64,000 bases of DNA, from positions 172,744-236,743 of the forward strand of contig HF991826.1 in the NCBI GenBank assembly GCA_000431535.1, read 5' to 3'. Below the pieces are notes generated by a model. That model saw only the letters and a program-made list of their open reading frames with translations. It was not told where the DNA came from and did not search any database. The stretch comes from Clostridium sp. CAG:678 (lineage in GTDB: Bacteria; Bacillota; Clostridia; Oscillospirales; Acutalibacteraceae). Below, piece after piece: positions 40,803 through 62,526 of this stretch. A program made the translations under genes and the position numbers. Within the stretch, counting starts at the first letter, position 1, and each line of letters begins with the position of its first letter.

Positions 40803-41828
40803 TCACTCCTCTGACAATATAATATCTATTTCATTTTGAAAATTCTCTATCAATTCATTACAATTTCCAAATAATGCATGAGATTTCCAAGATCGAAAGC
40901 ACTCTATAAATTTTTCTTCGGATAACGAACCAGTTTTCACAAGCTTTGCCATACGTCTGTACCTTCTTAAAGCGTTGTTTTTATTTTTATTATTTAAACG
41001 GCATTCGATATTTCCAGCTGCCGTTACATAAGTGTGAAATCCGAGAAATTTTATTCCTTGTCTGAATGGGATTATTTCTGTTTTTTCATTCAAGGATAAT
41101 CCTAATGAATTCAAAATACTTTTTATATCACACAAGCACTTTTTCAAATACTTTTTATTCTTATGAATTAAATAAAAATCATCCATGTATCTGCCATAAA
41201 ATTCGATTTTCAAATCATTCACTATATAGTGGTCTAAATCACTGAGATATAGTAAAGCAAATACTTGACTTGTTTGGTTTCCTAATGGCAGGCCTTTTCC
41301 TTGAGTACTGTCTATAATCAAGTCGCAAAGCCATAAAATATTTTCATCTGAAAAATATTTGCGTATGATTTGTTTTAAAATTTGATGATCAATAGAATAA
41401 AAGAATTTGGAAATGTCCCCTTTTAAAATAAAGCCACCACCATACTGTTGATAAAAGCTAATCATATTATCTTTTAAAGTGTTTAATCCGAAAAGAGTAC
41501 CTTTACCCTTTTGGCCAGCAAAATTGTTTCTTATAAACACATCTTTCAGCGTTGGCAATAATACATTATCACAAAGACTGTGCTGAACAATTTTATCCTT
41601 AAATGTAGAAGCTGCTATTAATCTCTTTTTTGGCTCATATACATAAAATTCTTGATATTCATCAACGCGATACTGCTTATGTTCAAGTTGTTCTTTTAAG
41701 ATATTTATCCCATCTAATGCATTGATTTCAAATTTCGCTGAACTATTTTTAAAACCCTTACCGGATTTTGCTTTTTTATATGCTTGATACAAATTTTTAA
41801 AATCAATAACTTTTTCAAAATCAGTCAT
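40803..41828 (-). CDS. Reverse transcriptase of the diversity-generating retroelement
   Basis: Copies the template repeat with errors at adenine. It has LGNQTSQ in RT domain 4, where ordinary RTs have QGxxxSP and DGR enzymes have (I/L)GNxxSQ, and the active site YGRYMDDFYLIH. IEFYGRYMDD and KFLGFHTYV are further DGR-typical segments. The true start is probably the ATG at 41828 (MTDFEKVIDFKNLYQAYKKA), because the longer frame begins inside the template repeat. The template, Avd and variable protein lie directly upstream. About 341 residues. Confidence 0.93.
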   Translation of the reverse strand: MTDFEKVIDFKNLYQAYKKAKSGKGFKNSSAKFEINALDGINILKEQLEHKQYRVDEYQEFYVYEPKKRLIAASTFKDKIVQHSLCDNVLLPTLKDVFIRNNFAGQKGKGTLFGLNTLKDNMISFYQQYGGGFILKGDISKFFYSIDHQILKQIIRKYFSDENILWLCDLIIDSTQGKGLPLGNQTSQVFALLYLSDLDHYIVNDLKIEFYGRYMDDFYLIHKNKKYLKKCLCDIKSILNSLGLSLNEKTEIIPFRQGIKFLGFHTYVTAAGNIECRLNNKNKNNALRRYRRMAKLVKTGSLSEEKFIECFRSWKSHALFGNCNELIENFQNEIDIILSEE

Positions 41829-41915
41829 AATATTATTGCAAAGGAAGGGTAATAAACTCTTTTGTGAGAGGCGTACTGATTTCAATTTAAATTTACTCTT
41901 TCTGACTTTCTCCCT

Positions 41916-41993
41916 AAACGGACGCACACCGTTGTCGTAGTTACAGTTGTTGTTGTTGAGTGTGCCATCGTTGTTAACACAACGAACGGTGTA
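41916..41993 (-). repeat. DGR template repeat (TR)
   Basis: 78 bases upstream of the RT matching the 3' ends of both variable genes. In coding sense it would read YTVRCVNNDGTLNNNNCNYD then NGVRPF: a run of AAC codons, the classic DGR design since AAC can mutate widely at its adenines without giving stops. The last 16 or so bases (CGGTGTGCGTCCGTTT in coding sense) are identical in all three copies, marking the initiation of mutagenic homing end. Confidence 0.92.
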
Positions 41994-42007
41994 AAACGAA
42001 TAGTTTA

Positions 42008-42394
42008 TTACCCGTGCCGATATCTTTCTTTATCCTTTGCCCTCCATGCAATCGTCATATGTTTAATATCAGAAACAAGTTTTGACCAATACTCGGCACT
42101 GTTCGGTTGAATGATTAAAAGTTCAAGACACATTTCAATATAAAACAATAACTCGTCACAACATAAAATTGCCTTGGTTTGTAAATCATTTCTTTTTATA
42201 AGGTCTTTCAATAATATCCTGTTTGCTTCTAATAAAGACTCATAAATGTCCATTGCTTTGCGTTGCATTCTATCACAAACAGTGAAACGATATTTTTTAG
42301 GAAATTTTTTACAGTTGGAAGTTATTTTAATTGTGTGTAATGTTAATTCTTTAGCTTTAACTATCACTTTTAAATCATTACTTTTTTGTTTCAC
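42008..42394 (-). CDS. avd: Avd, accessory variability determinant of the DGR
   Basis: 128-residue basic, all-helical protein (AKELTLHTIKITSNCKKFPK, then KYRFTVCDRMQRKAMDIYES), matching the four-helix bundle of Avd proteins that bind the RT and template RNA. It sits between the variable gene and the template repeat, the usual DGR order. 15 bases after the variable protein gene. Confidence 0.85.
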   Translation of the reverse strand: MKQKSNDLKVIVKAKELTLHTIKITSNCKKFPKKYRFTVCDRMQRKAMDIYESLLEANRILLKDLIKRNDLQTKAILCCDELLFYIEMCLELLIIQPNSAEYWSKLVSDIKHMTIAWRAKDKERYRHG

Positions 42395-42408
42395 GATATT
42401 CTCCTATA

Positions 42409-42948
42409 TTAAGATACAAAGATGCCAGATTTAAAGATACAAAACGGACGCACACCGTTGTCGTAGTTACAGTCGTTGTCGTTGAGCGTGCCATCGAGGT
42501 CAGCACAACGAACGGTGTAGTCATATCCATTACTACCCGTGGAGTACGGTGTGGCAAGCCACCACCAATTGCTCGTTATCCTGTATTTGTCTACAATATC
42601 TACATATTTTCTGTACTGTTCACAAGTAAGCAGACTAACACAATCATCACATATACCGTAATCCTTTCTACCATCATCTGCTGTAAGATTTACGGTATGC
42701 GGTATGATATTTATCGTGCCCACTTCGTTTACAAGTTCATCATAGAAGTCGCTGTTCAATTTCTTGCGAATACTACTGTTTTTATAGTTGTTTGTACTAT
42801 CATCAAATTTTGTGGTTTTCCAGAAATCTATTAATAGTACTTCTGTCGTACCAAGCACGTGATTTTGTGCAAGTACAATAAACTCAAAGTTACCTACTTT
42901 GAATGTATCACCTGACGCAATTTGAAATAAAACTTTTTTACCGTTCAT
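42409..42948 (-). CDS. DGR variable protein 1 (C-type-lectin-like, DUF6273-type)
   Basis: 179 residues. The body reads FKVGNFEFIVLAQ, then FDDSTNNYKNSSIRKKLNSD and WWWLATPYSTGSNGYDYTVRC, a lectin-like FGE/DUF6273 fold whose last roughly 25 residues are encoded by variable repeat 1. Diversity falls in the predicted ligand-binding face (CADLDGTLNDNDCNYDNGVR). No signal peptide, so it is cytoplasmic in the lysogen or part of a virion. It is paralogous to the second target at 61692-62282. Confidence 0.88.
   Translation of the reverse strand: MNGKKVLFQIASGDTFKVGNFEFIVLAQNHVLGTTEVLLIDFWKTTKFDDSTNNYKNSSIRKKLNSDFYDELVNEVGTINIIPHTVNLTADDGRKDYGICDDCVSLLTCEQYRKYVDIVDKYRITSNWWWLATPYSTGSNGYDYTVRCADLDGTLNDNDCNYDNGVRPFCIFKSGIFVS
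42442..42519 (-). repeat. DGR variable repeat 1 (VR1)
   Basis: Aligned base by base with the template repeat, VR1 differs at 7 of 78 positions; six are at template adenines (coding sense) and one is not. The invariant 3' end is shared. It forms the end of variable protein 1. Confidence 0.92.
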
Positions 42949-43070
42949 TAGTTTTCATCCTTTCTATCATCCAAGTGGCATTCCCTCAAATTGGTTGTAT
43001 AAATTCGGTATTTATACGTTTTGTTCCTCAGCCCATATCATCCCTTTTTAATCCTCTTTCTTAAAAATCA

Positions 43071-43409
43071 TTAGTTTCTTTTTCTTCTGAGCCTGTCTTC
43101 CACATCGCTTAAAGTTTCATTCAAATTATGAATATCTGCATAAAACTGACCGAGCGTTGAATATTCATCGATATCATCCAGCTCGTTTGCCATGATATCG
43201 TTGATTACAAAGCGCAAAACAGCAAACTGTTTCTCGTCATAGGTTTCCGCATCATATGCGTTTGCATTAAAGAAGGAACTGAAATACCAATCAGTACTTG
43301 GATCACCGACAATATAGTCGAGATGATGATCTACAACTCTTTTGATTTCCTCTACATCATCTGTATCACATTTAAAATATATGGCGACAGTTTTATTTTC
43401 ATTTTTCAT
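43071..43409 (-). CDS. Unrecognised acidic protein, 112 residues
   Basis: Acidic alpha/beta protein ending in a basic helix (DVEDRLRRKRN). One of a run of small genes (43.1-46.8 kb) typical of large phages and plasmids of Clostridia. No family recognised. Confidence 0.5.
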   Translation of the reverse strand: MKNENKTVAIYFKCDTDDVEEIKRVVDHHLDYIVGDPSTDWYFSSFFNANAYDAETYDEKQFAVLRFVINDIMANELDDIDEYSTLGQFYADIHNLNETLSDVEDRLRRKRN

Positions 43410-43432
43410 AATTCGAAACCCTTTCTTTCGGC

Positions 43433-43765
43433 TTATATCTTTCTGCTATCACAAACACAAACGCCTCTTTGATTGGCAAATGCTTTGAACTGTTTATATA
43501 AATCTTTATCCATTCCCGAGATTCCATCATCTGTGAATACCAGAACTTCATCTATCAACCACTGATAGAATGCTTTGGCATTCCATGTTTCGCTGTCATC
43601 CAGATCTTGAGCAATAAAATTACCGTCAGAAGACTTAAAATCAAGCACGATATATTCAATGCCGGGTACTTCTAATACTTTATAAAGCATTTTTTTCTTC
43701 TTCATTTGATGAATCGACGAACAGAATGCTGGGTATGTCTTGCCGTTTACAAGCAGGCGTAGCAT
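43433..43765 (-). CDS. Unrecognised protein, 110 residues
   Basis: Starts LRLLVNGKTYPAFCSSIHQM, alpha/beta; no motif recognised. Possibly co-transcribed with its neighbours. Confidence 0.45.
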   Translation of the reverse strand: MLRLLVNGKTYPAFCSSIHQMKKKKMLYKVLEVPGIEYIVLDFKSSDGNFIAQDLDDSETWNAKAFYQWLIDEVLVFTDDGISGMDKDLYKQFKAFANQRGVCVCDSRKI

Positions 43766-43814
43766 ATATCACAGTTTCTTTCTTGTTCACAAACATTCCT
43801 CCGTTATAGATAGA

Positions 43815-44021
43815 TCAAAGATTGCAAAAGAAATCTTCTTTTCCAAACTCAACACCAGCATAATAATCCTCAATAACTTGTCTGTCTACCAATTCATCAG
43901 CTACAGCCAATTCATTGGCGGACGGAGAAGTCGTTCCGTTTTCGCTGTCGCTCCAAAATCTTGAGATGTAATTCTGACATAATTCCAGATATTCATTTTC
44001 AGTGAGATCTTTAATTTTCAT
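43815..44021 (-). CDS. Unrecognised acidic protein, 68 residues
   Basis: Start ATG at 44021 preceded by GAGAGGTG; the longer frame to 44090 lies inside the upstream gene. MKIKDLTENEYLELCQNYIS, acidic; no family. Confidence 0.5.
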   Translation of the reverse strand: MKIKDLTENEYLELCQNYISRFWSDSENGTTSPSANELAVADELVDRQVIEDYYAGVEFGKEDFFCNL

Positions 44022-44760: not shown

Positions 44761-44776
44761 TATAACTCCTCTCCTC

Positions 44777-46864: not shown

Positions 46865-48130
46865 TTATGTAGCAAAGTCCTCTACTTGCTGCATTAATAT
46901 TGTCTTTCTTCGTTCGAGCAACTTTAATTTTTTGTACGATACACCAGCGGAAAGTTTCGTTCCGTCCAGCATACGAATATCAAAGTATCCGGTTGCTCTT
47001 CTTCCGAAAATAAAGCATTCCTTGTTATCATAAAACACTTTATCGAAAAGTTGGAAACCATACACATATTTCGGTGACTGGTTGCTCTTGCGTATTCCGC
47101 CTTTGTTTATCGTTGCTTTATGTAGTTGACGGTTTCTCTTACGAACGGCTTTTTGCAAATATAGATTCTCCGTTGGTAAAGCGTTCGGATGTCCGCTTAT
47201 GCATCTGGCGTCGATATAGTGCTTCTTTTCAAGTTGATGTTTTATTCTCGTGTGCTTTGTGATATATCCAAACGTCATGGAGACATTCGGATATATTTGT
47301 TTAAGCCTGTCGTAAAACGCCCAACGCATAACACCCATAAACGCGGCATCACGGTAGGATGCACCTCGTTTTACCCTGAGTTCTTTAATCAGTCCAGCGT
47401 GATATTTCGCATGACAGGTCTTGCATAAAGTAATCAGGTTATTTGGTGCGTCCCCACCTATTTTACGACTTTCAATATGGTGTACCTGTAAAACAGGGTC
47501 TTTTGATTTTCCTTTGCAATGTTGGCAAGTGTGATTATCTCTGAACAGAACATACTCTCTCACATTATACGAATAGATCTGCTCACCCTGCTGATAATCT
47601 ACGCCTTTGGGCAACGGAAGACCTAATTCTTTGGCTCTGAGCATTTGAGTATCAAATGCTGCCGTTTCGACTACAATGTTTGTAATCGGAAGTATTTTGT
47701 ATACATTTTTGACCGTTTTTAAGTGAGTATCTATTTTATTTTCAATAGACGGTGCCAACCAGCCTTTGTTTTTGCTGTGAACACGATTGTCGAACCTCGG
47801 TGATCGATAGCGCTTTTTCCTATTTCGTCTTGCCCTCCGAAATTCCCTGCGTGTAGATAACAACTTTACTATATCGTTACGCAAAATAACCTCTGAAGCA
47901 AATAATTCTTTCTTTTCTGTCGTTGCCGATAAACCAATAACTTTACTTCCAGCGTCTACACCCAAAGATATAGGTTGCTTATATTCGTGTGTATAATGTA
48001 GAAGTTTTATGGTAAACGGCGTTCTTTGGAGAACCTTGGCTTTGTGCTGTTTAAGAAGAATACGTACTTTGCGATAATCTTCCGTTGGCATCAGCGGTTG
48101 CCCTGTATGACTGAGAACATAGACCATCAT
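46865..48130 (-). CDS. iscB: IscB nuclease, copy 1
   Basis: RNA-guided nuclease ancestral to Cas9. PLMPT near the N-terminus is the PLMP domain, SLGVDAGSKVIGLS is RuvC-I, RREFRRARRNRKKRY the arginine-rich bridge helix, NIVVETAAFD is RuvC-II, CQHCKGKSKDP with VLQVHHIESR and LCKTCHAKYH the HNH, and HYIDARCISGHP RuvC-III. 421 residues. The start at 48130 is set by copy 2; a longer frame extends into the omega-RNA. All catalytic residues look intact. No TnpA transposase is present. Confidence 0.92.
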   Translation of the reverse strand: MMVYVLSHTGQPLMPTEDYRKVRILLKQHKAKVLQRTPFTIKLLHYTHEYKQPISLGVDAGSKVIGLSATTEKKELFASEVILRNDIVKLLSTRREFRRARRNRKKRYRSPRFDNRVHSKNKGWLAPSIENKIDTHLKTVKNVYKILPITNIVVETAAFDTQMLRAKELGLPLPKGVDYQQGEQIYSYNVREYVLFRDNHTCQHCKGKSKDPVLQVHHIESRKIGGDAPNNLITLCKTCHAKYHAGLIKELRVKRGASYRDAAFMGVMRWAFYDRLKQIYPNVSMTFGYITKHTRIKHQLEKKHYIDARCISGHPNALPTENLYLQKAVRKRNRQLHKATINKGGIRKSNQSPKYVYGFQLFDKVFYDNKECFIFGRRATGYFDIRMLDGTKLSAGVSYKKLKLLERRKTILMQQVEDFAT

Positions 48131-48435
48131 ACGTTTCTCCTTTCGTGAAATTAAACGTCTGCTAACAAATGACAGCAGACCTCTGCAAATACAGAGTAAG
48201 GTGCCCTTCCCCAATGTTATACAAGGTTTATTTGTATACAGCACTATTCCTACTCTACAGAATTGTTTAACCATATACCTCAGAGCGGCAGGTTAGGGCA
48301 AATGCCCACCGGTGACTATATATTCTTGTATAACGTAGCCTCTGTTTCAAGACTTAGGGTAGTCAACTTGTTCAAACGAACGCACCATTGTTACTGAGAT
48401 AGGCTCAATTATTTAGTACTGAGTAGTTGATAATA
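48131..48435 (-). ncRNA. Omega-RNA region of IscB copy 1
   Basis: About 300 bases upstream of iscB, largely the same as 59513-59812 upstream of copy 2, with hairpins such as CTGCTGTCATTTGTTAGCAG on the minus strand. IscB guides are encoded here, with the guide at the outer end. The sequence outside the conserved part (after GTAGTTGA) differs between the two copies. Confidence 0.75.
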
Positions 48436-48713: not shown

Positions 48714-49880
48714 CTATCTCAAATCTTCCAAAACCAGTTTCAAGTTTGACCCATTGCAGCGATGAATTATTTCTTCACCAAACTTCTTTGCAATATGCTC
48801 TACCATTCTGTCGATAACTTCGCCTTCAATCATTCGGTAATAATTTCGATATCCTTCCATAACTTGAACATCGTTTTTATCCCATTCCTTTCCGTTGTGC
48901 TTGTCCATAATATACGAAGCCAGCATATTTTGGAACTGCTTTTTCTTTTTGTACCCAACCGTTAAATTGTTATCTTTATTAACCATTATTCCTAAGTTCC
49001 AGTTTCTTCCTGCTCGAGATCCATATCTGCTCTTTTTAGAATTTAAAGTGAATGGAGCGTCAAATTCAGATAACGTATCTACTATAAACTTTTCAATTTC
49101 CTTGATATCAAATTCATACTTCGACGAAATTAAAAAATCATCAGCGTATCTTGTATAGATAAATCGCTGATAATTCTCTGTTTCGCCCAAATTATTTGGT
49201 TGTGAGCAAGGAAATGATCTCAATGTATTTGATAATTTGAAGTCAATTGGGATCATCATCACATTTGTAATTAATGGTGAAATCGGCGTACCTTGCGGTA
49301 GACCACCATTAAGAAATGCTAAATCCAATGCATGTTCCAATGCATCTTTCCCGTGTTTCGTTTTTACAACTTCTGAAAACGGAAATATCATAGATAACAT
49401 GTTCATGACAAACTCAATCGTGGTACTTCCAAAGAAATTCGACAAATCAAACTTACCATACCAGTTACTTCCATTCTGTTGATGACGTTTTACTGCGTCA
49501 ATCGTACTTCTTTTCTTAACATAAGCAAAGGCAGAAGTATGATATAATGCGTGAAAATCTTCTTCAAAAATCGCTTTTAGTCTTCTTAGAGCATTCATCA
49601 GTTCGGCATTAGGCGCGTCTATTCTTCTTAATCCGCCACTGTGCTTTGGTATAAAAAATGTATTATACAAATTTTCTCTTGAAATGCCTCTCAATGATTT
49701 ATAGTCGGAGTTGAACTTGTCCAATTCTAATATTAGGTCTTCTACTCTACACAAATCTTGAAGTTTTTCATTAATATATTTCAATTTGTAGGTGTGTGTA
49801 TTGGATGAATTTTGAGTTATGACCTTGTTGGTAATATTGTCATTAAATAAAAATTCTTCTATAGAAATTTGCTCGTACAT
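48714..49880 (-). CDS. Retron-like reverse transcriptase next to the ubiquitin-like operon
   Basis: 388 residues. HSGGLRRIDAP opens RT domain 1; KFDLSNFFGS (RT3), GGLPQGTPISPLITN (RT4) and TRYADDFLISS (active site YADD) follow. Downstream LGIMVNKDNNLTVGYKKKKQF resembles the retron VTG region. The QGTPISP motif separates it from the DGR RT. There is no maturase or endonuclease domain, so it is not a group II intron protein. It is preceded by a structured noncoding stretch and lies directly after the E1 gene. Confidence 0.8.
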   Translation of the reverse strand: MYEQISIEEFLFNDNITNKVITQNSSNTHTYKLKYINEKLQDLCRVEDLILELDKFNSDYKSLRGISRENLYNTFFIPKHSGGLRRIDAPNAELMNALRRLKAIFEEDFHALYHTSAFAYVKKRSTIDAVKRHQQNGSNWYGKFDLSNFFGSTTIEFVMNMLSMIFPFSEVVKTKHGKDALEHALDLAFLNGGLPQGTPISPLITNVMMIPIDFKLSNTLRSFPCSQPNNLGETENYQRFIYTRYADDFLISSKYEFDIKEIEKFIVDTLSEFDAPFTLNSKKSRYGSRAGRNWNLGIMVNKDNNLTVGYKKKKQFQNMLASYIMDKHNGKEWDKNDVQVMEGYRNYYRMIEGEVIDRMVEHIAKKFGEEIIHRCNGSNLKLVLEDLR

Positions 49881-50225: not shown

Positions 50226-50903
50226 TTAGAAAGCATCTATCAAAAATTTGAACGCATCTACAATAATTAATTTTTTAATTTTACCATTCTTTATAAAATT
50301 GATGAAGTTATTAACTGCAATCGCTGAGATAATTCGTACAGTTGTTGCGACTCCCAAAGTAACACCACAAGCAGATACTGGTGTCTCATCTGCGGCTTCT
50401 TCATGCGAAAATTGCATTGAATTTATCAGATCTTCTTTCATTTTCGTGTCTGACCAGTCTGCGGCGAAATGCTGGGCGCTTTCAAGCAATGTCCGAACAT
50501 CAAACACCGCTTTTATAAACGTATTATCCATATGCTGCTCAACGATTTTTCGACGCAGTTCAATACTGTCAACACATAGAAAAATATATCCAGACAAAAT
50601 TTTTCCTTGCCAACCTTCAGGTTTAATACTGATTGAATCCCCAATATCTGGATCTATATCTAATAAAATATCTCGCAACGCTTCAACTTTTAACTTGTCT
50701 ATATCCTCATGCCTATAGATTTGATTTACAAGATTGTGGGACTCTACCTTGTCAAAATCCCATAACACCAAATTTCTTACTCCACATCTTACAAGATTTT
50801 CTGCTATTGTGGCACCGACAGATCCACATCCAATAATATGTATCTTTGTTTTTCCGCATTTCTCAGGCTGGAAAAACTCATACGATTTGCTTAAATTAAT
50901 CAT
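50226..50903 (-). CDS. E1-like ThiF/UBA adenylating enzyme
   Basis: 225 residues. IHIIGCGSVGATIAENLVRCGVRNLVLWD is the ATP-binding Rossmann fold; DKVESHNLVNQIYR is the conserved acidic and Arg-finger segment; PVSACGVTLG holds a candidate catalytic Cys. It adenylates the C-terminus of a ubiquitin-like partner. It overlaps the JAB gene by four bases, so the two are translated together. The family is clear; whether it forms a thioester is inferred. Confidence 0.88.
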   Translation of the reverse strand: MINLSKSYEFFQPEKCGKTKIHIIGCGSVGATIAENLVRCGVRNLVLWDFDKVESHNLVNQIYRHEDIDKLKVEALRDILLDIDPDIGDSISIKPEGWQGKILSGYIFLCVDSIELRRKIVEQHMDNTFIKAVFDVRTLLESAQHFAADWSDTKMKEDLINSMQFSHEEAADETPVSACGVTLGVATTVRIISAIAVNNFINFIKNGKIKKLIIVDAFKFLIDAF

Positions 50904-51742
50904 TTAGACCTATTCCTCCTCTTACCTTTCTTTTTATTTTTGACGCTGTTTTTCGAACTGTATGGAATTATGATATCGCCTGTATCATCATCGGATTTAT
51001 CATCGTATGGATAATTATATGATGAAAAACCATCATACCCTCTTGCACCGTAGCCATAATAATTACCACCATAATTGTTCCAAGACTTATAAGAGTATGT
51101 TTTTTCTGTAACCATACTCTTTGCACTACTGATAAATTCACGCAATCTCAATCCATCATCTATAAATTGAATTGTTACATCCTCTGTCTCAAACAACATA
51201 TTCTTTGCAAGATCATAGATTTTGATTGTTTTATCGTGTTTTTTATTCATAATAATAAATATATAAAACATATCATCGTTTAATTGCTCTAAGATACTAT
51301 TTTGGTGTGTTAAATCCACTGCGGATGGCGTTGTCCCCATATTAACATGGGAATGCCCTTGAAATCTGATATTGTTAAATGTATCATCATCGAATGAGTA
51401 TAGCCAATCTTGATATTTTAATTGATCCGTGTTGACAGTTGCACCAGTCACCTCTTGCGGATATACCATAATATCGCTTACTATGTATTCGTTCTTGCTC
51501 TTATCGTCTCCCCGCTTCGCAATTCCATGCCAAGCAACCTCTTTATCAAACTCACTGACTAAAGTTGCCATTTTAATCCAAGCAGTTTCTGTAAAATATA
51601 ATGTTGCTTTTTCATCGTAGTTCTGAAATGATTTCGTATATGTAACCTTACCGTCCGACATTTTTGAAGAAGTTAGAGAGTCTCTAAAATCTTTACACAA
51701 ATCTTCTATCATATTATCCGTAAGTTTTATAATTTTACTCAT
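50900..51742 (-). CDS. JAB/MPN metalloprotease (deubiquitinase-like)
   Basis: About 280 residues. The MPN domain has the zinc motif intact: Glu in DKEVAWHGIA and HSHVNMGTTPSAVDL (H-x-H-x7-S-x2-D). Such enzymes trim or remove ubiquitin-like proteins. The C-terminal roughly 60 residues are Gly/Tyr and Asp-rich and end in a basic tail (KNKKKGKRRNRSK), possibly nucleic-acid-binding. The start at 51742 overlaps the E2-like gene by eight bases; an ATG at 51754 is possible. Confidence 0.9.
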   Translation of the reverse strand: MSKIIKLTDNMIEDLCKDFRDSLTSSKMSDGKVTYTKSFQNYDEKATLYFTETAWIKMATLVSEFDKEVAWHGIAKRGDDKSKNEYIVSDIMVYPQEVTGATVNTDQLKYQDWLYSFDDDTFNNIRFQGHSHVNMGTTPSAVDLTHQNSILEQLNDDMFYIFIIMNKKHDKTIKIYDLAKNMLFETEDVTIQFIDDGLRLREFISSAKSMVTEKTYSYKSWNNYGGNYYGYGARGYDGFSSYNYPYDDKSDDDTGDIIIPYSSKNSVKNKKKGKRRNRSK

Positions 51743-53144
51743 GATCACTATCATCCTTCCTATTCAAAAATTCTATAGCCTCACCCACAGACGCCATTGC
51801 CCCATCAGGGAGTTCCAAAAACTGACCTTTACTTGAGAAAAATATCTCAGCAAATTTATCCATTACAGCGCTATCCGCAAAATTCAGACTCTTGCATGAA
51901 GCTATGCACTGTGCAATCGCCCCTATGTAATCATTGTTTACTAAACAATCATTAATTGCCATATTATACTGACCCAAGCAAGCATACTCATCAATGTGTG
52001 GATTTGGCATATAATGTTCGCATTGTTTAGAAAAGTCCCAACCTTTTAGTCCAGACACTCCAGCCTCTGTATGAAGCCTGTATGCCGCACAGAATCTTAT
52101 ATGTATCTTTTGATCAATAAAGATAGCCTTTAATAATGCCTTAGCATCAGCAACATCCCAATCATAATCTGCGGCATAATCATAGATATCAGCATATTTA
52201 TTATTAATCATAGATGTAGCGACGTCTTCATCGTAATATTCGCAATATCCTTTAGCGATAAAATATATTGACTGACCTTCGACATCCTCCAGAAGTAAAT
52301 TATCATTATGTAGAAAATATTCCATAATTTCTGATTCGCTACCGTCTTTTAACTTCAAATTAATACCAGACAATGTTTCATTTAAAGTGTTGTTAGTAGA
52401 AATAATGGACATAATCTCGTGATTATATCTTGTAATCCGTGAATTATTGTCCTTAATTTGGACTATTAAATTCTCCTTTCTTCGATTTAAAATATCACTT
52501 TCAAAATTCGATAAAAGAGATCTAGTCCAAATTTCATTTACATTCATATCTTCTGCAATTTTAGTCAAATATGTCTCGTATTTCTTAGCCGACTTTAATC
52601 TCAGAGCCTTAATTAACTCTATTTCGTCTTCTGTTAACCCTTTCTTATCATCATTTGGTTGGAAAAACCAAGGTAGAAATGCGACAATTGCACATTGTAA
52701 ATAATGCCATTTTGGCAGATCTAAATCTTCCACGAATAAGATTACAGAATGTTTATCTTCACATATAAAACATAATACTTTAAACGACTTTTGATAGAAT
52801 GCACTAATTTTATTTACTAGTTGAAATTGGGAATACCGCGCGGAAAATACATTCTCAATCTCATCAAATAATTCAGGATGCCTATTAACGGATATAATTC
52901 GAATGCAGTTGTCGGGTTTTATGTCTTCGACAAATTGACATACATCATCCGCTGACTCTAAATATGGTGATGCAAATGAATCCACATAAATATTATCATC
53001 TTTATTCAATCTCTTAAATAATAAAGCACGCAGAGTGGACACAAAAGTTACATCTCCTGCGAAACAATCTCCTTTTATCTGCGAAAAATACCTGTTTACG
53101 GTATTATTCGAGAATTCAGTTTGAGTTATTAGTTTTTCAAACAT
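51735..53144 (-). CDS. E2-like protein with a large N-terminal region
   Basis: 469 residues. The C-terminal part has HYMPNPHIDEYACLGQYNMA, close to the HPN...CL motif of E2 conjugating enzymes, with the candidate catalytic Cys at residue 389 followed by the G-D/N and helix pattern (NDYIGAIAQCIASCKSL) of bacterial E2-like proteins. Residues 1-300 are unrecognised and partly coiled. In bacterial E1-E2-JAB operons an E2-like gene is expected at this position. The E2 call is inference from motif and context. Confidence 0.7.
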   Translation of the reverse strand: MFEKLITQTEFSNNTVNRYFSQIKGDCFAGDVTFVSTLRALLFKRLNKDDNIYVDSFASPYLESADDVCQFVEDIKPDNCIRIISVNRHPELFDEIENVFSARYSQFQLVNKISAFYQKSFKVLCFICEDKHSVILFVEDLDLPKWHYLQCAIVAFLPWFFQPNDDKKGLTEDEIELIKALRLKSAKKYETYLTKIAEDMNVNEIWTRSLLSNFESDILNRRKENLIVQIKDNNSRITRYNHEIMSIISTNNTLNETLSGINLKLKDGSESEIMEYFLHNDNLLLEDVEGQSIYFIAKGYCEYYDEDVATSMINNKYADIYDYAADYDWDVADAKALLKAIFIDQKIHIRFCAAYRLHTEAGVSGLKGWDFSKQCEHYMPNPHIDEYACLGQYNMAINDCLVNNDYIGAIAQCIASCKSLNFADSAVMDKFAEIFFSSKGQFLELPDGAMASVGEAIEFLNRKDDSDHE

Positions 53145-54507: not shown

Positions 54508-54558
54508 TGTCACCTTCCCTTTTCTTATGAAAGTTGTCAGCCTTCTTATTTAAATCGG

Positions 54559-54631
54559 TGCTGAAAGTAAGACTCGAACTTACAACCTATTGCCCACAGG
54601 GCGATTGCACTGCCAATTGTGCTATTCCAGC
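54559..54631 (-). tRNA. tRNA with unusual anticodon arm, probably Thr (TGT)
   Basis: 73-nt cloverleaf: acceptor GCTGGAA/TTTCAGC, D-arm GCAC/GTGC with GG, T-arm GTAAG-TTCGAGT-CTTAC. The anticodon stem is ATCGC/GCAAT (one C-A mismatch) and the loop CCTGTGG puts C at position 33, where T is nearly universal; the loop could further pair to leave a 3-base loop. CCA is not encoded (CCG). By position the anticodon is TGT. Confidence 0.6.
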
Positions 54632-54944
54632 ATATCTTGAATACTTCCTTGTAGACTTTTGAAGATTGTCTTCTGTCTACTTTCTGAATATTGTCTCGAG
54701 CTATTCAGTTCACATTGGAAGTATTCAATTTAATTTAAAGACTCACTGGGACACATTGTTAAGAGGTGCGGGGTCTCTAATCCTTAACAATGTATCAGCT
54801 TTGCGCTCTGGGTACTGATACTGGTTACTGACGCCATAACACCTGGGAAATTTATAACGATAACAAATCCCTAAAACGATTTCATATCTATGTCGGATTT
54901 CGATATGAACTATTAATCTGGCATAGCAATCAAACCGACGCCTG

Positions 54945-55001
54945 TGGTAGAGTGCACAGGATTTGAACCTGCAAACAATACCGGTCCGACACTTTCACTC
55001 T
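54945..55001 (-). pseudogene. tRNA remnant lacking about 20 bases
   Basis: The acceptor (AGAGTG...GCACTCT), discriminator, encoded CCA and T-arm GCAGG-TTCAAAT-CCTGT are intact, but only 22 bases lie between the 5' acceptor and the T-arm, about 20 fewer than a D-arm plus anticodon arm need. A deleted tRNA. Confidence 0.6.
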
Positions 55002-55066
55002 AGAAATTACTTATGCCTTTTCGAATATTGTCCCTGAGCCATCTGTTTTGGTACACTCCATATAAA

Positions 55067-55141
55067 TGGCAGAGATGGTTGGATTTGAACCAACGAATAA
55101 AGGAGTCAAAGTCCTTTGCCTTACCGCTTGGCTACATCTCT
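55067..55141 (-). tRNA. tRNA-Gln (TTG), second copy
   Basis: 75 nt with encoded CCA; the anticodon loop is CTTTGAC. It differs from the copy at 31503-31577 at only a few bases in the stems and variable loop. Confidence 0.93.
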
Positions 55142-55306
55142 ATATGGTACCCCTCGTCTTTCCGAGGTGTCAGCAACATTTTTACTCAGAAGGTTGCCAA
55201 ACTGTCTGTGGAATGGACACAGCCGCCACCGTGCCTCTCTTAACCCTTTATCACGGAAAAATGGGAACAAGTAAATTATTGCGCAAAAGGAGATTGATAG
55301 CTCCTA

Positions 55307-55380
55307 TGGTGTAGCATAACGGATTTGAACCATTAATATCACCTTGTGAAGTTGTTGTGTTACCATTACACTAATGCTAC
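55307..55380 (-). tRNA. Divergent tRNA, anticodon CAC (Val) by position
   Basis: 74 nt with a perfect acceptor GTAGCAT/ATGCTAC, encoded CCA, D-arm GTGT/ACAC and T-arm AATGG-TTCAAAT-CCGTT. The loop TTCACAA gives anticodon CAC, but the anticodon stem ACAAC/GGTGA has two mismatches, so function is uncertain. Confidence 0.55.
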
Positions 55381-55390
55381 ATATAATTTC

Positions 55391-55460
55391 GGTCTCTAAT
55401 ATTTCATAATTGATATGTACACTTTCAAATGCAAAATACTAGAGATTAAAAGAACTAAGA
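55391..55460 (-). repeat. Noncoding repeat element, copy 1 (copy 2 at 57118-57187)
   Basis: About 65-70 bases containing ATATGTACACT, AAATAC or AAATAT, GAGATTA and AGAACT in the same order recur at 57118-57187 with differences. Both lie in noncoding DNA around the tRNA cluster. Confidence 0.5.
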
Positions 55461-56271
55461 TAACGTAATAATATTGTGATTTGGTTGAGCCTATCTCTGC
55501 CGTCCTTTACTATTTCATATCACGCCTATTTCACTTAAAGGATGTCAACACTGTTTAACGGGAGATTAATCACATTTACACTTGAGAAATACTTACGCTA
55601 ACTTCACAAGAACTCCTAAGTTACTTTGATGCTTTAATTGTGCAGGCAACCTCCTATTCTCAAAGGGCAATCGCCAACTAACTTATTATTGAACATTGTA
55701 ATCCTGCACGGTTCCTAAGTATGCCATCAGTCGTTGTCCTACGCTTGGCTGATAACTAAAACTTTACAGAACCTTTAACCCCGGTAGTAGGAATAGTTAA
55801 ACATCCGGATTGTAAGGTTAATGTTCATATCTCCCCGTCGAATATGAACACATTGAGTACCCGACGATAAACGCTCAACTCCCAAATGGTTCGTAGCCAC
55901 CATCTCTAAGCAAGCCCTCCTTCTTTGCTCATGCGAAAAGTCCAAATAATGCTACTCTTCAGTTCGCTCCTCCGTTGATTCTTCCGCAACAGGAAACGGG
56001 TTCCAAGCTTGGAGTATTGGTTTTTATGTCTTTCCCTTGACAGAAGATTAGCCACCTACCTCAACTAATCTTCATGCGGAGGCATTCCTATGTAAATCGC
56101 TATCTAAACAACAAAACAAAAAGGCAAAGAAAGAGTACTCACACAACACAAATCATTTAAATAGCTTATCTTCAACCGCAAACCCTTGTCATAACAAAGT
56201 GCGACAAGTATACACTTGACAGCATACACGACCTATGGCGTCGCCGGTTTGTGCACCACCACGAGCTGTCA
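55461..56271. other. Noncoding stretch in the tRNA cluster
   Basis: 810 bases with no open frame of coding character on either strand and no further cloverleaf I can draw. It has scattered short palindromes. It may be a long untranslated RNA spacer between tRNAs or decayed tRNA genes; I see no definable feature. Confidence 0.5.
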
Positions 56272-56358
56272 TGGTGCTGATGACCAGACTTGAACTGGTA
56301 CGGTATTGCTACCGAGGGATTTTAAGTCCCTTGCGTCTGCCGATTTCGCCACATCAGC
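56272..56358 (-). tRNA. tRNA-Leu (TAA)
   Basis: 87 nt with a long variable arm (CTCGGTAGCAATACCG), acceptor GCTGATG/CATCAGC, encoded CCA, anticodon loop CTTAAAA giving TAA. A typical class II tRNA. Confidence 0.93.
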
Positions 56359-56392: not shown

Positions 56393-56635
56393 TTAAGCGT
56401 TATCAGCCTTTACCACATTCAGCAGGAATGTTCTTCCAGTAATGCCGAGTTCAGCATATGTTTTATCCATGTCTCCAGCCTTCAGGGAGCTGCCGTCGAG
56501 TGTGGTAATGCCCCTTGTGTAGTCAATATTGGCATTTTCGAGTGTCGTGCGCAGTGTCTCTGTTGACGGCACATCCTTGGTCTCCTTCTGAACATTATTT
56601 CCTACTGTAACTCTTACTACATATACTTCTGCCAT
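56393..56635 (-). CDS. Candidate ubiquitin-like (beta-grasp) protein
   Basis: 80 residues. VYVVRVTVGNNVQKETKDV is a beta hairpin, STETLRTTLENANI the helix, and GRTFLLNVVKADNA a final strand, the beta-grasp order of ubiquitin. The C-terminus (VVKADNA) has no Gly-Gly; many bacterial ubiquitin-like proteins are trimmed by a JAB enzyme first. It lies about 3.2 kb upstream of the E2-JAB-E1 genes, beyond the tRNA cluster, in the same direction. Fold call from pattern only. Confidence 0.6.
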   Translation of the reverse strand: MAEVYVVRVTVGNNVQKETKDVPSTETLRTTLENANIDYTRGITTLDGSSLKAGDMDKTYAELGITGRTFLLNVVKADNA

Positions 56636-58028: not shown

Positions 58029-58168
58029 TGAAAAGACTCCTTTCGCAAAAAAATTTCTATATCTCTTTTTGCCTCATTATATGAATCAGCAGTTTCCCAA
58101 AACTTCCCATTGAAAAGAACTACGACGCCAAACCGAAATGGAGTTATAGAAAAGTTAGATATGTTCAT
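58013..58168 (-). CDS. Small protein, 51 residues, between IscB element 2 and its neighbour
   Basis: ATG at 58168: MNISNFSITPFRFGVVVLFN, then GKFWETADSYNEAKRDIEIF. It overlaps the start of the downstream gene by 16 bases. The IscB element's end lies immediately upstream, so an N-terminal part may have been cut off. Confidence 0.45.
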   Translation of the reverse strand: MNISNFSITPFRFGVVVLFNGKFWETADSYNEAKRDIEIFLRKESFQCEKT

Positions 58169-58176
58169 GAAAATAA

Positions 58177-58226
58177 ACGCAAGGAGACTCGGTATTTTAA
58201 TACCGAGAGGAATTGCGTCTCCTTAC
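58177..58226. terminator. Compound hairpin at the 3' end of IscB element 2
   Basis: AAGGAGAC pairs with GTCTCCTT around an inner hairpin TCGGTATT/AATACCGA. Same place as the palindrome of element 1 but a different sequence. Confidence 0.65.
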
Positions 58227-58246
58227 TCCTCCTTTAATATTTTTTG

Positions 58247-59512
58247 TTATGCAGCGAAGTCCTCTACTTGCTGCATTAATATTGTTTTTCTTCTTTCGAG
58301 CAGCTTTAACTTTTTGTACGATACGCTTGCGGAAAGTTTTGTACCGTCCAGCATACGTATATCAAAGTAGCCTGATGCTCTTCTTCCGAAAATAAAGCAT
58401 TCCTTGTTGTCATAAAGCACCTTATCAAAAAGCTGGAAACCATACACATATTTCGGTGACTGGTTGCTCTTGCGGATACCGCCTTTGTTTATCGTTGCTT
58501 TATGCAATTGACGATTTTTTTTACGGACGGCTTTTTGCAGATAAAAATTCTCTGTCGGCAAAGCGTCCGGATGTCCGCTGATACATCTTGCATCGACACA
58601 GTGCTTCTTTTCTAAGTTGTGTTCTATTCTCGTGTGCTTTGTGATATATCCAAACGTCATGGAGACGTTCGGATATATTGTTTTAAGTCTGTCGTAAAAC
58701 GCCCAGCGCATGATACCCATAAAAGCAGCGTCGCGGAAGGAAGCGCCTCGTTTAACCTTGAGGTCTTTAATCAAGCCCGCGTGATATTTTGCATGACAAG
58801 TCTTACATAAAGCAATCAGATTATTTGGCGCGTTTCCGCCAACTTCACGGCTTTCAATGTGATGTACTTGCAAAACAGGATCCTTCGATTTTCCTTTGCA
58901 GTGCTGGCAGGTGTGGTTATCTCTGAAGAGAACATATTCTCTTACGTTATACGCATAGAGCTGTTCTCCCTGCTGATAATCGACGCCTTCCGGTAAAGGA
59001 AGACTAAGTTCCTTTGCTCTGAGCATTTGCGTATCAAATGCTGCGACTTCCGCTACAATATTTGTAATGGGAAGTATTCTGCATACATTTCTGACCGTTT
59101 TTAAATGAACACTGATTTTGTTTTCAATGGATGGAGCTAACCATCCTTTGTTTTTGCTGTGAACGCGGTTGTTGAATCGTGGCGCTCTGTAACGTGTTTT
59201 TCTGTTACGTCTTGCTCTTCTGAATTCCCTGCGTACAGATAACAGTTTAACAATATCGTCCCGCAGGATCACTTCAGAAGCAAACAATTCTTTCTGTTCT
59301 GTCGTTGCCGATAAACCAATGACTTTACTTCCGGCGTCTACACCCAAGGACACGGGTTGTTTGTATTCGTGTGTATAATGTAGAAGTTTTATGGTAAACG
59401 GCGTTCTTTGGAGAACCTTGGCTTTGTGCTGTTTAAGAAGAATACGTACTTTGCGATAATCTTCCGTTGGCATCAGCGGTTGCCCTGTATGACTGAGAAC
59501 ATAGACCATCAT
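58247..59512 (-). CDS. iscB: IscB nuclease, copy 2
   Basis: 421 residues, about nine in ten the same as copy 1 at 46865-48130, with no indels. PLMPT, LGVDAGSKVIGLS (RuvC-I), a bridge helix, NIVAEVAAFD (RuvC-II), VLQVHHIESR with LCKTCHAKYH (HNH) and HCVDARCISGHP (RuvC-III) are all intact. No TnpA nearby. The two copies 11 kb apart show recent transposition within the element. Confidence 0.92.
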   Translation of the reverse strand: MMVYVLSHTGQPLMPTEDYRKVRILLKQHKAKVLQRTPFTIKLLHYTHEYKQPVSLGVDAGSKVIGLSATTEQKELFASEVILRDDIVKLLSVRREFRRARRNRKTRYRAPRFNNRVHSKNKGWLAPSIENKISVHLKTVRNVCRILPITNIVAEVAAFDTQMLRAKELSLPLPEGVDYQQGEQLYAYNVREYVLFRDNHTCQHCKGKSKDPVLQVHHIESREVGGNAPNNLIALCKTCHAKYHAGLIKDLKVKRGASFRDAAFMGIMRWAFYDRLKTIYPNVSMTFGYITKHTRIEHNLEKKHCVDARCISGHPDALPTENFYLQKAVRKKNRQLHKATINKGGIRKSNQSPKYVYGFQLFDKVLYDNKECFIFGRRASGYFDIRMLDGTKLSASVSYKKLKLLERRKTILMQQVEDFAA

Positions 59513-59812
59513 ACGTTTCTCCTTTCGTGGAATGAATGTCTGCTAACAAATGACAGCAGACCTCTGTAAAACAGAGTAAGATGCCCTTCCCCAAAGTTAT
59601 ACAAGGTTTTACATATGCAGCACGATTCCTACCCGACAGAATGGTTTAACCACATACCTCAGAGCAGCAGGTTAGAGCAAACGCCCACCGGTGACTATAT
59701 ATTCTTGTATAACGTAGCCTCTGTTTCAAGACTTAGGGTAGTCAACTTGTTCAAAGGAACGCACTTCTGTTATCGAGACAAGCTCGGTACTTCAGTGCCG
59801 AGTAGTTGACTA
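59513..59812 (-). ncRNA. Omega-RNA region of IscB copy 2
   Basis: Conserved with the region upstream of copy 1. It ends at GTAGTTGA, after which the sequences part; the guide should be read from there. A TnpB element abuts it, so the present guide would derive from that element's end. Confidence 0.7.
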
Positions 59813-59829
59813 TTGTATACTGTGACATC

Positions 59830-59965
59830 CTCCCCCACTTCAAGTGGGGGCTTCCCTCAAAAGAGAGAGTGGTTCCTGCTTCATGGAGCACAGCGTCTGT
59901 TCCTTAATGGAATTGACGTCTTACACGCTCTCCACAGGCTTAGAATTCCGTGTGTCCCACGGTAT
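59830..59965 (-). ncRNA. Omega-RNA scaffold of the TnpB element
   Basis: On the minus strand the sequence after the tnpB stop (GTGGGACACACGGAATTC, then CCTGTGGAGAGCGTGTAAGA) ends in the CCCCCACTTGAAGTGGGGG hairpin; this is the conserved region where TnpB omega-RNA is made. The guide follows the left end. Confidence 0.7.
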
Positions 59966-61072
59966 TTAGGATATGGCTTTTAAGCCTTCGTTTAATATAT
60001 TAATTGCGGCGTTGATATCTCTGTCATGTGCAGTACCGCAGTTGGGGCAGATCCAATGCCGTATTGTTAAATCTTTTACTTCGGGATTCTGGTATCCGCA
60101 CACATGGCAGAGTTGGGAACTCGCGTAAAAACGTCCGACTTTTTGTATGGTTCTTCCATACCACAAAGCCTTATATTCCAGTTGTCGTTTGATTTCTCCC
60201 CATGCTGCGTCACTGACAGATAAAGCAAGACGATGATTTTTGAGCATACCTTTAATATTCAGGTCTTCGATACAGATCACTTGGTTTTCGTGTATCAATT
60301 TCGAAGTTGCCTTATGTATCAAATCGTTTCTCTGCCGTGTGACTTTCTCATGCAGTCTTGCTGCTTTGAGCCGTTGCTTGTTGTAGTTTGCGGAACCCTT
60401 AGTCTTTCTGCTGAGACTTTGCTGCTGACGTTTTAATCGTTTCAGCGTGTTTCGCAAATAGGCAGGATTTTCTATTACCGTACCGTCGCTCAAAGCGCAA
60501 AGTTCATGGATTCCCATATCTACGCCGACAACAGAAGAAACTTCCTTGAGTGGCTCAATATCGGTCTCACAGGAAAAAGATACATAATATTTGCCGGATG
60601 CGTTTCTGGAAACAGTTGCATTCAAGATACGTCCCTCTATCGGTCGGTGCAGTTTGATTTTAACTGCGCCAAGTTTTGGAAGAATGACTGTATTGCCGGA
60701 TATGCGTATACCGTTATTCTGGTTCCGCGTCCTGTAACTGTGTTTCGGAAACTTCCTGCTTTTGAATTTTGGATACCTCGTATGCTTTTGAAAGAAATGC
60801 TGAAACGCGTTATCCAGATCCCGCAGGCTTTCCTGTAGCGCCATAGCGTCCGCTTCACGCAGAAAGGACCGTTCCTCTGTTTTCTTCAACGCCGTTAACA
60901 TAGAAGACGTCTCTTTGTACGAAACGCTTTTGCCTTCCTCAGCATACGCTTTGCTCCGTACATCCAGAAACGTGTTGTAGACAAGGCGGCAGCAGCCGAA
61001 CATTTTGTTGATTAAAACTTCCTGTTCACCGGTAGGATAAATACGATATTTGAACGCTTTATTCCTCAGCAT
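59966..61072 (-). CDS. tnpB: TnpB RNA-guided nuclease
   Basis: Programmable nuclease ancestral to Cas12. [20 protein letters not shown] opens the protein at the ATG at 61072, with AGGAGG upstream; a longer frame is noncoding. RuvC-I is [17 protein letters not shown], Ruv[15 protein letters not shown], the zinc finger [14 protein letters not shown] with CPNCG, and Ruv[14 protein letters not shown], all intact. 368 residues. Confidence 0.93.
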
Positions 61073-61145
61073 CCTGCTGCCTCCTTTCATGGGAATCTTT
61101 GTATGAATATATATGATAAATACAAAAATATCAAGTATATTTGCA

Positions 61146-61361
61146 CTACAAATATTCCGGTGTATCCACCACTTCAAGTGGTGGTTTTACCGGTGAGATT
61201 TTCAATAATAATCCATTCATAAATTTTTTATAGTTGCATTGAGCGCAGTACTCTTTAAAATTAGATCGATTACGGATCACACTCTGAAGAAGTTCTCTGA
61301 TTTTCTGCATTAATTCTGAATTTCTTATGTATGAATGACATAAAAGATATGTTTTATTCAC
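61146..61361 (-). CDS. Small protein truncated by the TnpB element
   Basis: 71-residue frame from ATG at 61361, helical and basic ([20 protein letters not shown]). Its last roughly 15 residues ([14 protein letters not shown]) come from the TnpB element end, so the gene has lost its original C-terminus. Confidence 0.5.
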
Positions 61362-61680
61362 CTAAGATTTTTTGAATTTTACACTTCAACGCAATATGAT
61401 AGCACTCATCGAAGTCCTCCGGTGTACTTTCTTGCTTAGTTGGATAATTTCGGGATTTTTTTGGCATTTCGTTTTCCGCAATTTTTTCCTTACAATTATG
61501 TAAAAAATAGTCCTCGAGTTGGTTTTTAAACCCAACTACAAGAACTATCCACAAAATAGCCGTAAAAATCCATAACCCAAGCAGAACCCATAAAGATCCT
61601 TCAGCGCAAAAGGATATTAATGTAAAGAGAATTGCCATACCTAAAAATAAGTAAAAAATCGCATTTTTAATGATTTTCAT
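61354..61680 (-). CDS. Two-helix membrane protein
   Basis: 108 residues; start ATG at 61680 after GAGG. Two transmembrane helices (about 5-27 and 31-50) and a charged soluble tail. It directly follows variable protein 2 and overlaps the next gene by eight bases. A membrane partner of the variable protein is possible but only from position. Confidence 0.55.
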   Translation of the reverse strand: MKIIKNAIFYLFLGMAILFTLISFCAEGSLWVLLGLWIFTAILWIVLVVGFKNQLEDYFLHNCKEKIAENEMPKKSRNYPTKQESTPEDFDECYHIALKCKIQKILGE

Positions 61681-61691
61681 AACTAACCTCA

Positions 61692-62282
61692 TTAAGATAC
61701 AAAGATATTAGATTTAAAGATACAAAACGGACGCACACCGCAGCCGAAGTAACAGCTGTAGCTGATGAGTGTGCCATCGTTGAAAACACAACGAACGGTG
61801 AAATTATAACCGTTGATACTCGTAGAATATGGTGTCGCAAGCCACCACCAATCGCTCGTTATCCTATATTTGTCAATAATATACACATAATTTCTATAAT
61901 CATCATAAGTGAGCAGGCTTACATAATCTTCACATACATTATAGTCTATTCTTCCGTCATCTGCTATAAGGTCTACCCAGTGAGGAATAATATTGTTTAT
62001 ACCCACTTCGTTTGCAATCTTATTTAGAAATTCATCGTTTAGTTTATAACGAATACTGCTATTTTTGTAATTGTTTGTACTGTCATCAAATTTTGCAGTT
62101 TTCCAGAAATCTTTTAGTAATACCGCTGTTTCCTCGTTCTTTTCATCTTGATCAAGAACGATAAATTCAAATTTACCTACTTTGAAAGTATCGCCCACTT
62201 TAACTTCTGAAAGTCGCTTTTTCGTTTCCTCAACTACCTTGATTTTATAGCCGAGTATTTCCTGAATTTCCTTGATTGTCAT
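61692..62282 (-). CDS. DGR variable protein 2, remote target
   Basis: 196 residues (or 207 from a GTG at 62315 inside the inserted element). Paralog of variable protein 1: FKVGKFEFIVLDQDE, DDSTNNYKNSSIRYKLNDEF, WWWLATPYSTSINGYNFTVRC. The N-terminal roughly 45 residues are extra and helical. Its 3' end is variable repeat 2. It has no RT, Avd or template next to it, so it must use the cassette 19 kb away. The inserted TnpB remnant ends at its start and may have replaced its promoter. Confidence 0.88.
   Translation of the reverse strand: MTIKEIQEILGYKIKVVEETKKRLSEVKVGDTFKVGKFEFIVLDQDEKNEETAVLLKDFWKTAKFDDSTNNYKNSSIRYKLNDEFLNKIANEVGINNIIPHWVDLIADDGRIDYNVCEDYVSLLTYDDYRNYVYIIDKYRITSDWWWLATPYSTSINGYNFTVRCVFNDGTLISYSCYFGCGVRPFCIFKSNIFVS
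61725..61802 (-). repeat. DGR variable repeat 2 (VR2)
   Basis: Aligned to the template repeat it differs at 12 of 78 positions, and all 12 are at template adenines in coding sense. The 3' end (CGGTGTGCGTCCGTTT) is identical. It therefore shows clear adenine-directed mutagenesis and is a real, used target. Confidence 0.95.
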
Positions 62283-62298
62283 TTCTTTAGTTTTACTC

Positions 62299-62526
62299 GT
62301 GACATCCACCCCCACTTCAAATGGTTCCTGCTTCGTTGAGCACAGCGTCCTTGTTTCCGGAGAAACGAACGTCTTACACGCTCTCCACAGGCTTAGATTC
62401 CCGTGTACCCCACGGTATTTTTTTAAACAGCATATACGATAAAAATATCAAGTATAACTGCATTACCAACATTCCGGTGTATCCACCACTTCAAGTGATG
62501 GTTTACCAGTGAAATTTCTAATAAAA
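62299..62526 (-). mobile_element. TnpB-less remnant of the same IS605 element
   Basis: Both ends of the 59820-61212 element are kept (CCCCCACTTCAA at the left; TCCACCACTTCAAGTGATGG at the right), with the omega-RNA scaffold (CACGCTCTCCACAGGCTTAG in plus sense), but all of tnpB is gone. It sits between a terminator and the start of variable protein 2. Confidence 0.8.

Follow-up and report, generated by a model that had tools for sequence, protein, structure and literature searches.

We describe a diversity-generating retroelement (DGR) in a 64,000-nucleotide stretch of Clostridium sp. CAG:678 (contig HF991826.1, positions 172,744 to 236,743; hereafter the window). This one DGR very probably serves two paralogous target genes, and we propose that a short DNA tag, together with homology in the variable repeat (VR), marks the recipient. 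In the proposed mechanism the transcript of the template repeat (TR) would be copied into cDNA by a complex of the reverse transcriptase (RT) and Avd, error-prone opposite adenines, and this cDNA would replace the VR of either target, VR1 next door or VR2 19.8 kb away. The two targets would stem from a duplication within this lineage. The tag that sits just 3' of each VR (with VR homology) would mark the recipient, and a target would work wherever duplication carries it; with a shared tag as the address, distance would therefore be irrelevant.

The compact cassette of RT, Avd, TR and VR1 that a preliminary description of the window had placed at 40.8-42.9 kb was confirmed. On the minus strand the order is target gene 1 with VR1 (42948-42409), avd (42394-42008), TR (41993-41916) and RT (41828-40803), and target gene 2 with VR2 (62282-61692) lies on the same strand. 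The RT (40803..41828, 341 residues from the likely ATG, in an open frame that extends to 41927) matched phrog_1423 'Reverse transcriptase' (1.2e-112), with 8ub7 'Reverse transcriptase' as top match among solved structures (1.4e-35). It contains LGNQTSQ and YMDD, motifs that are marks of DGR RTs. ATG 41828 is the more likely start, because the listed GTG start falls within the TR. Avd (42008..42394, 128 residues) matched phrog_3206 'Avd protein of DGR' (2.6e-22) and scored 42.7 bits against NCBIfam DivGenRetAVD, below the model cut-off of 80. The TR (41916..41993) has 78 nt and 23 adenines. Target gene 1 (42409..42948, 179 residues) and target gene 2 (61692..62282, 196 residues) both belong to DUF6273: PF19789 matched them at 2.9e-10 and 2.7e-7, in both cases above the model cut-off, and phrog_9958 at 1.1e-39 and 4.5e-43. 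For target gene 2 a start at ATG 62282 is more likely than the listed GTG 62315, which sits in an insertion-sequence remnant. VR1 (42442..42519) and VR2 (61725..61802) each end at most 36 nt from the stop-codon side of their own gene. A DGR-type RT, Avd, an adenine-restricted TR/VR pair and a VR near the 3' end of the target are all present; the arrangement departs from that of a tandem two-target DUF6273 DGR, with both targets adjacent and upstream of Avd, in that the second target lies at -19.8 kb. The published DUF6273 model is a C-type lectin fold that displays the VR on a surface beta-hairpin (PMC10743442). By this analogy our targets are probably surface-exposed C-type-lectin-like binders, and a solved-structure profile search of the targets returned no lectin match up to E 1.

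Compared with the TR, VR2 carries 12 mismatches, all of them at TR adenines (hypergeometric P = 3.1e-8), and agrees with it at 55/55 non-adenine sites. VR1 carries seven, six at adenines (P = 0.0022), the seventh being T to C. This recount agrees with the preliminary description, and it was made without the adenine-tolerant scoring used for relatives (see below). When the TR was used as a DNA query of the 2,389,330-base genome, it found three places, namely TR, VR1 and VR2, all within the window, and the DUF6273 model run on the whole genome found two genes, targets 1 and 2. No third target appeared in the 2.39-Mb genome by TR, DUF6273 model or tag. Hence one RT/TR set faces a second VR about 19 kb off in a paralogous gene, as had been claimed, and the genome holds only these copies.

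Targets 1 and 2 share 67% amino acid identity, are mutually closest relatives among those found, and form sisters in a 60-row tree (support 100/99). In the parts outside the VR, 303 of 429 aligned bases match, as do 52/91 same-residue codons (39/91 differ). Within the repeat, VR1 and VR2 agree at 54/55 non-adenine sites and in all 13 same-residue codons (0/13 differ), a contrast significant for bases (P = 8e-7) and for same-residue codons (P = 0.0016). At the TR adenines, in turn, the two VRs differ at 17 of 23 sites and agree at 6. Ordinary gene conversion or a recent duplication, with no retrohoming to VR2, might be invoked for the likeness of the VRs, given the paralogy of the genes and their sister position in the tree. 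Conversion should even out every site alike, however, yet the adenine sites differ while the others agree; this explanation is largely refuted and we consider it highly improbable. Since the non-adenine sites are homogenised and the TR-adenine sites differ, TR-templated copying rather than VR-to-VR conversion is the well-supported explanation: one TR appears to have rewritten both VRs repeatedly. At the level of sequence the data also demonstrate that homing took place after the gene duplication. The homogenisation pattern alone is no proof of homing after the 19-kb separation; that homing to VR2 has continued since then we infer. A split-cassette origin, in which the cassette moved away and target gene 2 stayed in place as the ancestral distal member (A) of a tandem A-B pair, was rejected as stated, because the window genes are sisters and fall outside the A and B groups of the relatives.

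VR2 could instead be a fossil that was diversified while it lay beside the cassette and has since the separation undergone only drift or selection. The separation cannot be dated, and insertion-sequence copies that bracket target gene 2 could have moved it recently: a TnpB insertion sequence lies downstream (59822..61187, minus strand, ends inferred from repeats; OrfB_IS605 1.1e-30, Cas12f1-like_TNB 2.5e-25) and an ends-only remnant of it upstream (62299..62504, minus strand; repeats 91-93% identical). Moreover, in locus L118, which has the same phage backbone, a whole one-target DGR fills the slot that in the window holds target gene 2 alone; that DGR is no near relative of the window's, and its target groups with that of L063 in the tree. 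Nevertheless, a fossil of any age should gather silent non-adenine changes, and VR2 has none relative to the TR and shares every same-residue codon with VR1, against the 39/91 that differ outside. Distant targets also recur in five other phages. We therefore regard a fossil VR2 as unlikely. The agreement of VR2 with the TR bounds the time since the last homing and leaves the separation itself undated. That a transposon aided the relocation of target gene 2 is a fair guess, made by analogy because, of the transposases found near variable proteins in cyanobacteria, IS200/IS605 elements were the most widespread (PMC7517822).

In these five phages, TR-matched second targets lie 12-37 kb away. The distance from the TR is 15.9 kb in Lelie, 11.7 kb for the small target of nd4, 22.1 kb in IMGVR_UViG_3300029305_001531 (7 adenine and 1 non-adenine mismatch over 80 nt) and 20.6 kb in the IMG/VR contig G366 (16 adenine and 1 non-adenine mismatch over 83 nt), where the target was found through a looser form of the tag; in FP_Toutatis the second target is 37.1 kb away on the linear record. 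Lelie and Toutatis are related phages (87.2%; PMC11792537). On these matches, distant targets recur among phages and the layout is not rare. The preliminary description, which had called a distant target in one element less common, overstated the case, all the more as many relatives carry two tandem targets.

The DNA tag TTTTGTATCTTNAANTCTNNNATCTTTGTATCT follows both VR1 and VR2 and is absent beside the TR. Likewise TTTTGTATCTTTAAATCTNNNATCTTTGTATCT stands directly 3' of both VRs and is lacking in the TR flank. The candidate address tags, both exact matches on the minus strand directly 3' of their VRs, occupy 42412..42444 and 61695..61727. A generalised tag pattern matched the window twice against 0.00 expected, and the whole genome, with up to 3 mismatches allowed, also contained 2 matches, against 0 for the reversed control. 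An exact scan of a viral contig collection yielded 57 stretches (some redundant), and in 57/57 the tag directly followed a target-like end that has RP upstream. An RT match lay within the stretch for 44 of them. For the other 13 the record had an RT elsewhere in 4 cases and none in 9. In the four RT-bearing records the tag adjoins the RT by coordinates in three (one, L280, being the L090 locus) and is far from it in G366; in the nine others it lies at most 1.3 kb from a contig end in six and not so in three (G369, G372, G374). As a separate observation, the viral records G374 (L331, L332; 174.7 kb) and G369 (L333; 34.7 kb) carry tagged targets and no match to the DGR RT query, and one G374 VR fits the G366 TR with 8 adenine and 1 non-adenine mismatches over 79 nt; possibly these are orphan targets or are served in trans.

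Codon use in the tag was compared with that of its surroundings. In 57 dereplicated small targets, codon homozygosity was 0.81 in 9 scorable tag columns versus 0.08 in 58 columns before the VR (P = 8e-7) and 0.41 in VR columns (P = 0.002). In 23 tentaclin-type genes it was 0.64 in the tag, 0.20 before and 0.16 after it (tag vs. before, P = 4e-6), and in 9 genes of a 256-residue group it was 0.73 in the tag versus 0.41 (P = 0.012). Synonymous codons of the tag are nearly invariant across otherwise divergent genes (Ser TCT 56/57, Ile ATC 56/56, Val GTA 39/40), whereas codon choice is mixed at conserved residues ahead of the VR. The core TCTNNNATCTT occurred at most 45 nt from the VR in 73/93 small and 25/38 tentaclin cases and in 0/12 other DGRs, a group defined after the flanks had been seen; on the TR side it occurred in 0/61, 0/38 and 0/12, respectively, and in 82 of 23,044 background windows. 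The conserved stretch might still be only a C-terminal protein motif or another coding-level signal and no target-site element at all: the residues S-x-I-F-V-S are conserved, and a homing role of the tag is a proposal. Against this speak the frozen synonymous codons in the tag beside the mixed codons of conserved residues before the VR, the missing core in the other DGRs, and the presence of the same nucleotides in tentaclin-type genes, where the VR comes early and codons beyond the tag are not frozen. We judge the protein-motif explanation to be a minority prospect, although a serious one. Sequence comparison demonstrates constraint on the tag at the DNA level; its role as a target address that marks the recipient together with VR homology is what we propose.

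A BPP-1-type target site, made of an initiation of mutagenic homing (IMH) element and a GC-rich hairpin (7-10 bp stem, 4-nt loop, 4-34 bp after the VR), is absent here. The best stem 3' of VR1 and VR2 was 4 bp at both, and DNA folding z-scores after the two VRs were -0.09 and -0.41. Stems of at least 7 bp in the 60 nt after the VR were found for 0/92 near or tandem VRs, 2/39 tentaclin VRs and 4/12 other DGRs. In BPP-1 the hairpin is required for efficient homing, and inverted repeats are reported to be nearly always present (PMC3240598). Because BPP-1 needs a hairpin and the DUF6273 class is without one, this class seems to use a different target mark. We give about even credence to the general form of this proposal, that in DUF6273-class phage DGRs the BPP-1 hairpin is replaced by a portable, sequence-defined tag of ~33 bp 3' of the VR, within coding sequence, and that any copy with tag and VR would be rewritten in trans at any distance. 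The TR, on the other side of the exchange, does have RNA structure. A 15-nt inverted repeat, 93% complementary with a 12-bp perfect core, would close the TR RNA, with its 5' arm at the 3' end of avd (41999..42013) and its 3' arm in the spacer before the RT (41847..41861), both on the minus strand. A TR-closing stem of at least 9 bp was present in 37/72 loci versus 9/360 shuffles, and in an alignment of 32 loci two-sided changes preserved pairing at 12 of the 16 predicted pairs; the row of the window is out of register there. Structured RNA around the TR, a further DGR feature, is thus present as a 12-bp closing stem with covariation in relatives, and it agrees with the RNA scaffold described around the TR of BPP-1 (PMC12875486).

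A total of 163 loci were scanned, the window included, comprising RT relatives plus L012-L014. Two had no RT match, 27 had no TR/VR pair and 134 had one. The pair score for relatives tolerates adenine mismatches and at most 3 others, so the adenine bias of the relatives holds by construction; later counts leave out up to 20 duplicate loci and L180, L181 and L185, whose pairs are doubtful. Two VRs lie upstream of the TR in 40 of the 134 loci (32 distinct, window included), at about -1.04 to -1.43 kb and -0.51 to -0.89 kb in all but the window. Across the 32 distinct loci the changed-adenine share was larger in the distal VR in 16, larger in the proximal VR in 13 and equal in 3 (Wilcoxon P = 0.12). 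The earlier suggestion that the greater divergence of VR2 betrays recent retargeting thus found no support; VR2 divergence is no signal of recency, because the mismatch count reflects errors per event and selection, not time.

Related genomes, whose comparison the preliminary description had recommended, varied in the expected way. Between L055, L056 or L111 and L090 there are 12 differences over 2,701 sites, 12/12 at TR adenines and all in the proximal VR, and L029 and L058 likewise differ at 12/12 TR-adenine sites. From such sequence differences the DUF6273 DGR class appears to show live variation among relatives. The record of L059 (G322) is a side case: its contig ends overlap, with 140 of 141 bases identical, beside two different VR versions, which we read as two alleles of one target, and the assembly looks as if it had been broken by VR variation.

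Several observations weigh against the proposal of one DGR with two tagged targets. In many pairs of near-identical relatives the VRs do not differ at all, and several of these pairs probably represent a single genome entered in both collections. In fourteen of the loci scanned, some of them truncated at contig ends, a single nearby VR of this kind was found and no further one. One VR1 mismatch falls at a non-adenine position. The window represents one genome only, and present activity of this copy is inferred from its repeats. As to the tag, its amino acids are conserved like its codons, so part of the constraint may act on the protein, and the difference between tag and VR codons was not significant in either the tentaclin (P = 0.23) or the 256-residue (P = 0.20) group. 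Finally, G366 has an exact tag at 137,999, far from its RT, beside a VR unmatched by that record's TR. The tag as a sufficient signal for one TR was not borne out there, and possession of the tag alone therefore does not turn a site into a target for a particular TR.

Between the two targets lies a second RT, not of the DGR kind (48714-49880, minus strand), which was absent from the preliminary description. Its position invites the thought that this RT, not the DGR RT, feeds VR2. However, its sequence is like that of retron-type RTs (NCBIfam retron_St85_RT 162 bits, below the cut-off of 235; PADLOC RT_II-A), it is present in 15/15 of the IMG/VR loci L240-L254, in which target gene 2 was matched in 0/15, and the sole TR in the genome adjoins the DGR RT. 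We rejected the second RT as a source of VR2 on this evidence, and its involvement is barely credible. The loci L240-L254 (mostly contigs of 100-123 kb, 14 retrieved by a ThiF query and one by an RT query) share with the window and L118, partly or wholly, the gene order 62774, 57447, 56678, 56393, 51735, 50900, 50226 (ThiF) and 48714 (second RT). A query with target gene 2 (P0005) had 0/15 matches in the L240-L254 records versus homologues in 46/50 DGR records, and the DGR RT query found RT matches in 4/15. Because P0005 is unmatched there, the phage backbone appears to have acquired the DGR. Homologues of both the second RT and ThiF occur in all 15 loci and in L118. The second RT adjoins the ThiF/E1-like gene in a minus-strand block (48714-49880, 50226-50903, 50900-51754, 51735-53144, 56393-56635) that looks like a core phage module joining an RT with a ubiquitin-like system. 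The block may resemble PRTRC cassettes.

The cassette and both targets likely lie within one integrated element. Phage-type genes span ~12.6 kb to the window end, beginning with a tyrosine integrase (12629-13825, phrog_1) and including an NrdD-like reductase, DNA polymerase III alpha (phrog_405), a primase, a DnaB-like helicase, an Erf-like annealing protein, a repressor, an MrpR-like core-binding domain, a recombination directionality factor (phrog_478), a Clp-type head protease and five tRNAs. The contig ends where the window ends, so the element is cut and its far boundary and most structural (virion) genes are out of view. Four of the tRNA genes (Thr, Gln, Val, Leu) form a cluster at 54557-56358 (minus strand). 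Besides the TnpB gene, the phage region encodes two RRXRR and HNH proteins (46865-48274 and 58247-59512, both minus strand), which we take to be IscB-like. A radical-SAM-like protein adjoins the DGR (39545-40549, minus strand; phrog_24834 5e-106) and has a homologue with 73% identity in phage locus L249. A scan of viral contigs returned no relative for the gene at 62774-63514.

How DGRs discriminate donor from recipient and reach distant targets has been worked out mainly in BPP-1, via the hairpin. A hairpin-less class with a conserved tag would offer a second, testable answer to target choice. The tag already allows targets to be listed from sequence alone, as the 57/57 target-like matches of the blind viral-contig scan illustrate, and if the proposal is true, tagged targets can be found or predicted with no RT or TR nearby. 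Metagenome surveys confined to the RT vicinity would miss distant targets, a limitation that one such survey itself states (PMC8144416).

The closest known systems are the two-target DUF6273 DGRs of the gut phages nd4 and nd12, which serve a tentaclin and a small target (PMC10743442). They share with the window one TR for two DUF6273 targets, the small one far away in nd4. There, however, the target beside the RT is a tentaclin with Ig-like domains and the small target alone is distant, whereas here both targets are small paralogues and the near one lies upstream of Avd. Second variable regions have also been described in the Faecalibacterium prophages Lelie and CP11 (PMC11792537), again in phage and with both targets DUF6273; those targets are one large and one small, and their distance was read from a map, whereas it was measured here. 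Remote targets served by one RT/TR are known from Treponema denticola (PMC4891356), from cyanobacteria (PMC7517822), where IS200/IS605 elements lie near the variable proteins, and from Pseudogulbenkiania at >370 kb (PMC3521204). The Treponema and cyanobacterial targets differ in that they are reported as chromosomal genes, and the targets of all these systems belong to other families. With BPP-1 (PMC3240598, PMC12875486) the window has in common the RT, Avd, TR, C-terminal VR, structured RNA around the TR and an element directly 3' of the VR, which is required in BPP-1. A literature search of open full texts, including excerpts of PMC3240598, PMC12875486, PMC10743442 and PMC11792537 and excluding subscription papers and preprints, found no description of such a tag. 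The element in BPP-1 is a GC-rich hairpin after the IMH; here no such hairpin was found, and a conserved, non-palindromic tag stands in its place. Two-target and remote-target layouts have thus been described before, and judged from sequence the new part would be the hairpin-less address tag.

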